This document shows, piece after piece, positions 7,612 through 10,651 of a stretch of 64,000 bases of DNA. The stretch is from Thioalkalivibrio sp. ALJ3 (GTDB lineage: Bacteria > Pseudomonadota > Gammaproteobacteria > Ectothiorhodospirales > Ectothiorhodospiraceae), in assembly GCF_000377205.1 (NCBI RefSeq), contig NZ_KB897905.1, positions 306,586-370,585 of the forward strand. Reading direction: 5' to 3'. Below the pieces are notes generated by a model. That model was not told the DNA's origin. It ran no database searches and saw only the letters and a list, made by a program, of their open reading frames with translations. Position numbers and translations under genes: made by a program. Positions within the stretch are counted from its first letter, which is position 1; each line of letters begins with the position of its first letter.

Positions 7612-8703
<1,092 letters not shown>

Positions 8704-8707
8704 ACTC

Positions 8708-8772
8708 CGGGCTGGATCGGGGCGAGATGGGGCGCCGCCCCGCATTCCGGGTACACGGTGGGGTCCAGCCCG
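8708..8772 (+). other. Stem-loop in the mreB-mreC intergenic region
   Basis: A 9-bp inverted repeat (CGGGCTGGA at 8708-8716, TCCAGCCCG at 8764-8772) encloses a smaller hairpin, GGGGC-GCC-GCCCC (8729-8741). There is no T-run, so it is not a classic terminator. It could partially terminate or protect the 3' end of mreB mRNA and so set MreB above MreC. That role is inference. Confidence 0.5.
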
Positions 8773-8834
8773 TCGCGCCCGCCGACCGCGGGGCGCCCCC
8801 GGCCCAACCACGACCCGCAACCGGAGGTTGAACT

Positions 8835-9770
8835 ATCAGCAAGCCGCTGTTCAGACTGGGCGTATCGCCCACTCTGCGCCTGCTCGCGGTCATCCTGCTG
8901 GGGGTGGCGCTGATGGCGCTGGACCACCGGCTGAACGAGCTGCAGACGGTGCGCAATGCACTGTCCACCATCGCCTACCCCTTGCAAGTCGCAGTGGATG
9001 CCCCGATCCGGGCGGGCAGTCGACTGCTCGAATCCTTCACCAGTCGCGAAGATCTGATCACCGAGAATCGCATCCTGCGCGACGAGAATGCGGAGTTGCG
9101 GGCTCGTCAACTGCGCTTCGACGCGTTGCAGATGGAGAACGACCGCCTGCGGGCGCTGCTGAATACGGCCGAACGCGCGGAAGAACGCGTCGAGATCGCC
9201 AAACTCCTGGCCGTGGACCTGGACCCCTTTCGCCAGCAGATCGTACTGAGCAAGGGCAGCCGACACGATGTCTACCCCGGGCAGCCGGTGATTCACCCCG
9301 ATGGCGTAATCGGCCAAGTCCTTTCGACCCAGATGACCAGCTCCACCGCCCTGCTGATCTCCGACCCGGGCCATGCCCTGCCCGTGCTCAGTGCGCGCAC
9401 CGGCCTGCGCGGCATTGTCGTCGGCACCGGCAATCCGCGGCGCCTGGAGATGCGGCACGTGCCACCCCAGGAGGATATCGAGGAAGGCGACCTCCTGCTG
9501 ACATCCGGTCTGGGCGGACGCTTCCCGCCGGACTACCCGGTCGCCCGTGTGATCTCGGTCGAACGTCAGCCCGGCCAGCCATTCCTGGATATCCAGGCCG
9601 AACCGCTGGCGGCCCTGGATCGCTCGCGGGAAGTCCTGTTGCTGTGGACCGACGAGGTCCCGGATGCGGATGCCGACACGACATCAAACACCGAAGAGGA
9701 TGAACTGGACGACAGCGGATCAGAGCCCGCAACCGGGACCAGCACTCCGGAGGCGGATGAGGCCCCATGA
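8835..9770 (+). CDS. mreC: Rod shape-determining protein MreC (apparent ATC start)
   Basis: Inner-membrane elongasome protein with a large periplasmic beta-rich domain. The frame opens after a TGA at 8829. The best Shine-Dalgarno (GGAGGT, 8823-8828) points at ATC 8835, giving the N-terminus (M)SKPLFRLGVSPTLR, which matches the KPxF start and arginine-flanked first helix of E. coli MreC. The first ATG (8904) would delete most of the membrane helix (residues about 13-27). The 311-residue form then has a coiled coil (about 65-115) and the LLTSGLGGRFPPDYPV signature. The C-terminal tail is acidic. The stop overlaps the mreD ATG (ATGA). CTG 8847 or GTG 8895 are alternative starts, but both are poorly placed. 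Confidence 0.93.
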   Translation: MSKPLFRLGVSPTLRLLAVILLGVALMALDHRLNELQTVRNALSTIAYPLQVAVDAPIRAGSRLLESFTSREDLITENRILRDENAELRARQLRFDALQMENDRLRALLNTAERAEERVEIAKLLAVDLDPFRQQIVLSKGSRHDVYPGQPVIHPDGVIGQVLSTQMTSSTALLISDPGHALPVLSARTGLRGIVVGTGNPRRLEMRHVPPQEDIEEGDLLLTSGLGGRFPPDYPVARVISVERQPGQPFLDIQAEPLAALDRSREVLLLWTDEVPDADADTTSNTEEDELDDSGSEPATGTSTPEADEAP

Positions 9771-10318: not shown

Positions 10319-10336
10319 GGGAAACACTGATCAATG
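10319..10336 (+). repeat. Solitary copy of the GGGAAACACTGAT repeat
   Basis: GGGAAACACTGATCAATG differs from the MITE end at 38619 by one base over 18 (C for T). No matching inverted end is found nearby. It lies directly before the ribosome-binding site of the DUF1244 gene, 12 bp from the start codon. It points inner end first toward the gene, the opposite orientation to the copies at 3261, 38619 and 42775. Confidence 0.65.
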
Positions 10337-10348
10337 GAGATATCCACG

Positions 10349-10651
10349 ATGGATCCGAAGACCCGCACCGAGATCGAAGCCGCCGTCTTCCAGCGCCTTC
10401 TGCAACACCTGGATGAACGCAAGGATGTCCAGAACATCGACCTGATGAATCTCGCCGGCTTCTGCCGCAACTGCCTGTCCAAGTGGTACGTCGCGGCCGC
10501 CGAAGAACGCGGCGAGTCGATCGATTACGAGGGCGCCCGCGAGATCGTCTACGGCATGCCCTACAGCGAATGGAAGGAACGCTACCAGAAGGAAGCATCC
10601 GCCGAGCAGAAGGCGGCTTTCGACGCGAGCCAGAAATCGAATCATGCATGA
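10349..10651 (+). CDS. DUF1244 family protein
   Basis: A 100-residue cytoplasmic protein of the DUF1244 family, function unknown. The conserved core is present: LLQHLDERKDVQNIDLMNLAGFCRNCLSKWY, with the two cysteines of FCRNC, then GMPYSEWKERYQ near the C-terminus. The start at 10349 is preferred over the in-frame ATG at 10334, because GGAGA (10336-10340) sits eight bases upstream of it while the earlier ATG lies within the repeat and has no site. The stop overlaps the start of rnd by eight bases, suggesting coupled translation. Confidence 0.85.
   Translation: MDPKTRTEIEAAVFQRLLQHLDERKDVQNIDLMNLAGFCRNCLSKWYVAAAEERGESIDYEGAREIVYGMPYSEWKERYQKEASAEQKAAFDASQKSNHA

Follow-up and report, generated by a model that had tools for sequence, protein, structure and literature searches.

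A conserved AUH start codon of mreC in Gammaproteobacteria and its likely role as a throttle on MreC synthesis

Introduction

In Thioalkalivibrio sp. ALJ3, translation of the cell-shape gene mreC almost certainly begins at an ATC codon located at positions 8835-8837 of the window, the whole stretch of 64,000 nucleotides that was analysed. Judging from the aligned genomes, an AUH start codon of mreC (ATC, ATT or ATA in the DNA) is a class-wide feature, present in most sampled gammaproteobacterial families. The best overall explanation, which we consider probable, is that this conserved codon throttles the synthesis of MreC. Only very few bacterial genes are known to have a conserved AUH start. 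Its retention in a cell-shape gene over most of a class provides a handle on the question why inefficient starts persist in evolution, and another one on what determines the MreB:MreC:MreD ratio. Gene finders restricted to ATG, GTG and TTG are unable to detect the AUH start of mreC, standard annotation misses it, and many genomes probably carry an mreC annotation that is too short. No earlier report of this start was found in the open-access literature searched.

The mreC locus in the window

mreC is placed between mreB and mreD, as expected for the MreC family. The following features are relevant:

7657..8703, plus strand: mreB, the upstream gene of the operon, with an ATG start (NF010539, 6.9e-158; PF06723, 1e-142)
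8823..8828, plus strand: Shine-Dalgarno (SD) sequence GGAGGT of mreC, read directly; an SD is found in 45/45 family loci, in 44 with a spacing of 6
8829..8831, plus strand: TGA in the mreC frame between SD and ATC, which bars every upstream start in frame
8835..8837, plus strand: ATC, the almost certain mreC start codon; the position is ATC, ATA or ATT in 45/45 loci of the family and 75/107 genomes of the class
8835..9770, plus strand: mreC coding sequence counted from ATC, 311 codons and stop (TIGR00219, 4.1e-50; PF04085, 9.2e-40)
8856..8918, plus strand: predicted membrane helix of MreC, residues ~8-28 from ATC (Kyte-Doolittle)
8904-8906 and 8913-8915, plus strand: GTG and ATG, respectively, rejected downstream start candidates within the helix
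9767..10258, plus strand: mreD (TIGR03426, 3.6e-33), whose ATG overlaps the mreC stop codon (ATGA)

Direct reading of the plus strand yields the order GGAGGT, TGA, ACT (8832-8834), ATC, followed by AGC AAG CCG CTG TTC. This bears out the first-pass annotation, which had described a GGAGGT ending at 8828, a TGA at 8829 and an ATC at 8835 continued by AGC-AAG-CCG. Its claim that no ATG, GTG or TTG lies at a suitable distance in frame was also correct: Direct reading revealed none in the mreC frame between the TGA (8829-8831) and the GTG at 8904, which is already part of the helix. By contrast, the GTG and ATG that it had placed at 8895 and 8904 were off by nine nucleotides. Position 8895 is a CTG, the GTG begins at 8904 and the first in-frame ATG at 8913. 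That the first ATG cuts into the membrane helix applies to the actual position, too.

The encoded protein scores above the curated cut-offs for MreC (TIGR00219, 170.5 bits vs. 92.75; PF04085, 136.2 vs. 28). Kyte-Doolittle means over 19 residues reach 2.06 at residues 8-12 counted from ATC. A short cytoplasmic N-terminus with the KPxF motif followed by a membrane helix is obtained only with a start at or before ATC. Based on the ATGA overlap, mreD is probably translationally coupled to mreC. A hidden RNA element did not become apparent at the locus, with no Rfam match and folding no better than that of shuffled sequences (z 0.52). Promoter prediction made no call, and the sole terminator-like call is located at the end of mreB, on the minus strand. 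Further downstream, a conserved DUF1244 protein of uncharacterised function is encoded (10334-10651), flanked by mreD and by an rnd-like exonuclease gene.

Conservation of the AUH start

mreC is present in 29 of 30 genomes of the window's genus. Among 45 mreC 5' ends from five genera of the family, 43 have ATC, one ATA and one ATT, and each is preceded by an SD, with a mean anti-SD duplex of -8.9 kcal/mol. The upstream sequence is variable: The nearby in-frame stop comes and goes, the SD and the AUH codon are constant. The arrangement of SD, ATH codon and KPxF recurs in all 45 loci and in most of the class sample, which is more than expected by chance. In loci L004-L007, in-frame stops occupy the same place as the TGA of the window, and in some other relatives the frame is open upstream of the AUH codon. 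The start column of mreB is ATG across the family. A comparison with relatives and a search for ATG in a second strain had been proposed as checks on the ATC, and the relatives read AUH throughout. A priori, a sequencing or assembly error, or the loss of an ATG in one strain, is a frequent cause of an apparently missing start. Since genomes of five genera, each assembled separately, share this AUH, as do others across the class, both sequencing error and a strain-specific lesion are ruled out, and the probability left to this reading is negligible.

For the class, 276 genomes were searched and mreC 5' ends taken from the best-matching ones. In the 107 genomes aligned at the start column, a sample biased to closer, better-scoring relatives because lower-scoring matches were left out, and with the start called by eye in 19 divergent loci, 75 have AUH (ATC 33, ATT 21, ATA 21). 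The others have ATG (20), GTG (7) or TTG (2), and three are without an assigned start. Counted per GTDB family (n=73), 49 use AUH only and 22 NTG only, one is mixed and one without assignment. The ATC start, which could have been taken for an oddity of one genome, is thus not confined to it. When start types were mapped on a quick MreC tree of 140 rows, 12 changes were required compared to 35 in shuffles.

A phylum-level search added family f143, whose MreC is close to the P. aeruginosa MreC structures. Its mreC genes start with ATC or ATT, and in three loci a TAG is located four codons upstream of the start. In f164, which is Acinetobacter-like by resemblance, mreC has ATT in L202 and L204, where ATT-AAY-AAT-TCG follows TAGGAG. 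Families that resemble enterics have ATG. A brief look at 20 loci from other classes, such as the Alphaproteobacteria, revealed a canonical start candidate near the expected place in all cases and apparently no KPxF. As a side observation, the class mreC loci L087, L099 and L111 display no clear ATH or NTG at the expected column; in L099, CTG or ATC are candidates.

Evidence that the AUH codon is the start

Several features of the alignment indicate that the AUH codon is the start: stop codons upstream, the position of the SD, NTG codons in the aligned column, an excess of ATA and downstream NTG codons devoid of an SD. An in-frame stop is located at most 30 nt upstream in 59 of 120 AUH loci, in 56 of them without an intervening NTG (CTG counted). 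In other lineages, the AUH column contains ATG, GTG or TTG. Purines resembling an SD are most frequent at -12 to -7 relative to the AUH codon. With an SD-strength threshold and a hexamer of our own choice, used here and below, a strong SD precedes 95% of the AUH starts compared to 13% of background upstream positions. Furthermore, ATA accounts for 21 of 91 AUH starts, while 6.1 would be expected from Ile codon use inside the same genes. The upstream stops, the NTG codons in the same column elsewhere and the ATA excess rule out that AUH is merely an Ile codon within a longer protein. Together with the family and class counts, these data uphold the first-pass proposal that mreC starts at ATC.

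A start further upstream would require a ribosome that passes the TGA. The frame is open upstream in some relatives, but direct support for such a start was not found. Moreover, roughly every second AUH locus has an in-frame stop near the SD, and in only three of these does a canonical codon intervene. In the window, the sole in-frame NTG within the upstream 150 nt is the ATG at 8727, upstream of the TGA. We regard an upstream start as wholly improbable.

Alternatively, the ATC might be untranslated and the start located downstream, at GTG 8904, ATG 8913 or CTG 8847. GTG and ATG are the sole canonical in-frame codons nearby, such a call is expected from a gene finder that accepts only ATG, GTG or TTG, and the published P. 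aeruginosa numbering (see below) implies one. However, a strong SD precedes the first downstream NTG in just 3% of the 120 loci, and the position of this NTG is variable. The Leu codon that is CTG 8847 in the window is CTG in just 23 of 91 loci. A start at GTG or ATG would remove part of the helix, and the KPxF residues, which precede these candidates, are conserved in the alignment. A downstream start is therefore highly unlikely. The same internal GTG and ATG could, in addition to full-length MreC from ATC, give rise to a second, shorter product. These codons are in frame, but without an SD and without a fixed position in relatives, and the short form would be deprived of most of the helix. 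The synthesis of two products appears very unlikely, too. A single MreC with its N-terminus at the ATC remains by far the preferred reading.

The published P. aeruginosa MreC numbering

A study of the homologous P. aeruginosa MreC names residues Pro114/Phe115, Arg175 and Glu188/Arg190 (PMC8137920). When the Pseudomonas-like L181 was aligned against the P. aeruginosa MreC structures (PDB 6zlv/6zm0) and counted from its ATC, the corresponding residues were 130/131, 191 and 204/206, i.e. shifted by +16 at all three anchors. In the Pseudomonas-like mreC genes L177-L181, codon 17 is GTG. The first 14 MreC residues were said to comprise the cytoplasmic portion as well as the membrane region (PMC8137920), for which 14 residues are too few. 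This, the offset of +16 and the GTG at codon 17 suggest that the published start is inside the helix. Published P. aeruginosa MreC thus appears to be truncated, with a start in mid-helix, 16 codons past the AUH position, as deduced from the DNA of relatives. Its close relatives in f143 start with ATC or ATT. Constructs or tags based on the published numbering may be devoid of the real N-terminus.

SD strength and MreC output

A strong SD was found in 94 of 99 AUH mreC genes and in 10 of 41 NTG mreC genes. This contrast is clustered in the tree, with only one independent pair on well-supported branches, and its Fisher value is accordingly to be read with caution. In the subset for which flanks were available, the proportions for mreC are 97% (AUH) and 24% (NTG). 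In the same subset, mreB has a strong SD in 6% of the genomes with AUH-mreC and 10% of those with NTG-mreC, and mreD in 71% and 90%, respectively. Because the SDs of mreB and mreD do not track the start type of mreC, the contrast belongs to mreC and not to genome-wide SD use. The simplest reading of these sequence patterns would be that a set initiation rate is under selection, which may be attained in two ways, a weak codon after a strong SD or AUG after a weak one.

Why this rate should be low is suggested by data from other bacteria. In S. aureus, AUU and AUA after strong SDs yield ~10% of AUG (PMC13009471). MreC regulates PBP2/RodA and is present at a low copy number: E. coli contains ~180 copies, and overexpression deforms the cells, which become shorter and wider (PMC7793260). 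By analogy with these cases, low MreC output would be the purpose of the weak start codon, a view that we favour with some reserve. The AUH start of mreC looks like an old, conserved means of limiting the amount of an important protein.

In the proposed mechanism, the strong SD would position the ribosome on ATC 8835-8837, which would be decoded as fMet by the initiator tRNA. The weak codon would hold MreC output low, and set it relative to MreB, whose gene upstream starts with ATG. Through the ATGA overlap, the output of MreD would be limited as well.

It is also conceivable that translation does start at ATC but the strong SD makes up for the weak codon entirely. MreC would then be produced at an ordinary level, and its rare start codon would be a tolerated relic. 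Genome-wide, SD strength tracks weak start codons, which was read as selection for high initiation (PMC5622118). The same pairing of weak start and strong SD is seen in mreC, and a strong SD could lift output to an ordinary level. On the other hand, a relic should revert to ATG by one substitution class-wide, but AUH was kept in 49 of 73 families. NTG lineages are mostly without a strong SD instead of having retained it. Finally, the ~10% of AUG cited above was measured in S. aureus after strong SDs, and ccpN reaches up to 30% of AUG in rich medium (PMC13009471). Full compensation is accordingly an unlikely reading, albeit one that deserves attention, and the throttle is preferred.

Comparison with known AUH-start genes

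mreC combines interspecies conservation of the AUH codon, the absence of a usable canonical in-frame start and a strong, well-spaced SD, as is characteristic of AUH genes. By the anatomy of its start region, it belongs to one group with infC, pcnB, ccpN and cvfC1. E. coli mreC resembles the gene in the window in its location between mreB and mreD and in its MKPxF N-terminus, and its ATG is aligned with the AUH codon. In contrast to the latter, it has ATG and a weak SD instead of AUH and a strong SD.

S. aureus ccpN (AUA) and cvfC1 (AUU) share with mreC a conserved AUH codon behind a strong, extended SD. In Staphylococcus, ribosome profiling and reporters demonstrated their starts (PMC13009471), whereas that of mreC is deduced from sequence, over a whole class.

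In E. coli, an AUU start was ascribed to infC and pcnB only (PMC9410913). infC of the ALJ3 genome (L175, G000:C2 near 471330, minus strand) reads TGA ATT GGA GAA AAG GCT ATT AGC, with an ATT start after the SD and an in-frame TGA just upstream. Like mreC, infC has a conserved AUH start (AUU or AUA) behind an SD and no canonical start nearby. Unlike mreC, which encodes an elongasome membrane protein, infC encodes IF3 and is autoregulated via its own start codon (PMC9410913). By analogy, the mreC start would be expected to be sensitive to IF3. One might speculate further that mreC is part of an IF3-controlled group of genes: Rejection of AUH would scale with IF3, so that an excess of 30S subunits over IF3 would raise MreC together with the coupled MreD. 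In most Gammaproteobacteria, wall elongation would thus be linked to the condition of the translation apparatus. We consider this scenario tentative and rather improbable.

E. coli pcnB, which encodes poly(A) polymerase, is comparable to mreC in that its AUU start limits a protein present at a low level (cited in PMC9410913, PMC13009471). In pcnB of the ALJ3 genome (L226, G000:C3:354005-355297, minus strand), no ATG occurs in the 59 codons from the upstream stop to the family match. ATA, ATC and GTG codons are start candidates, and this start may be non-canonical, too.
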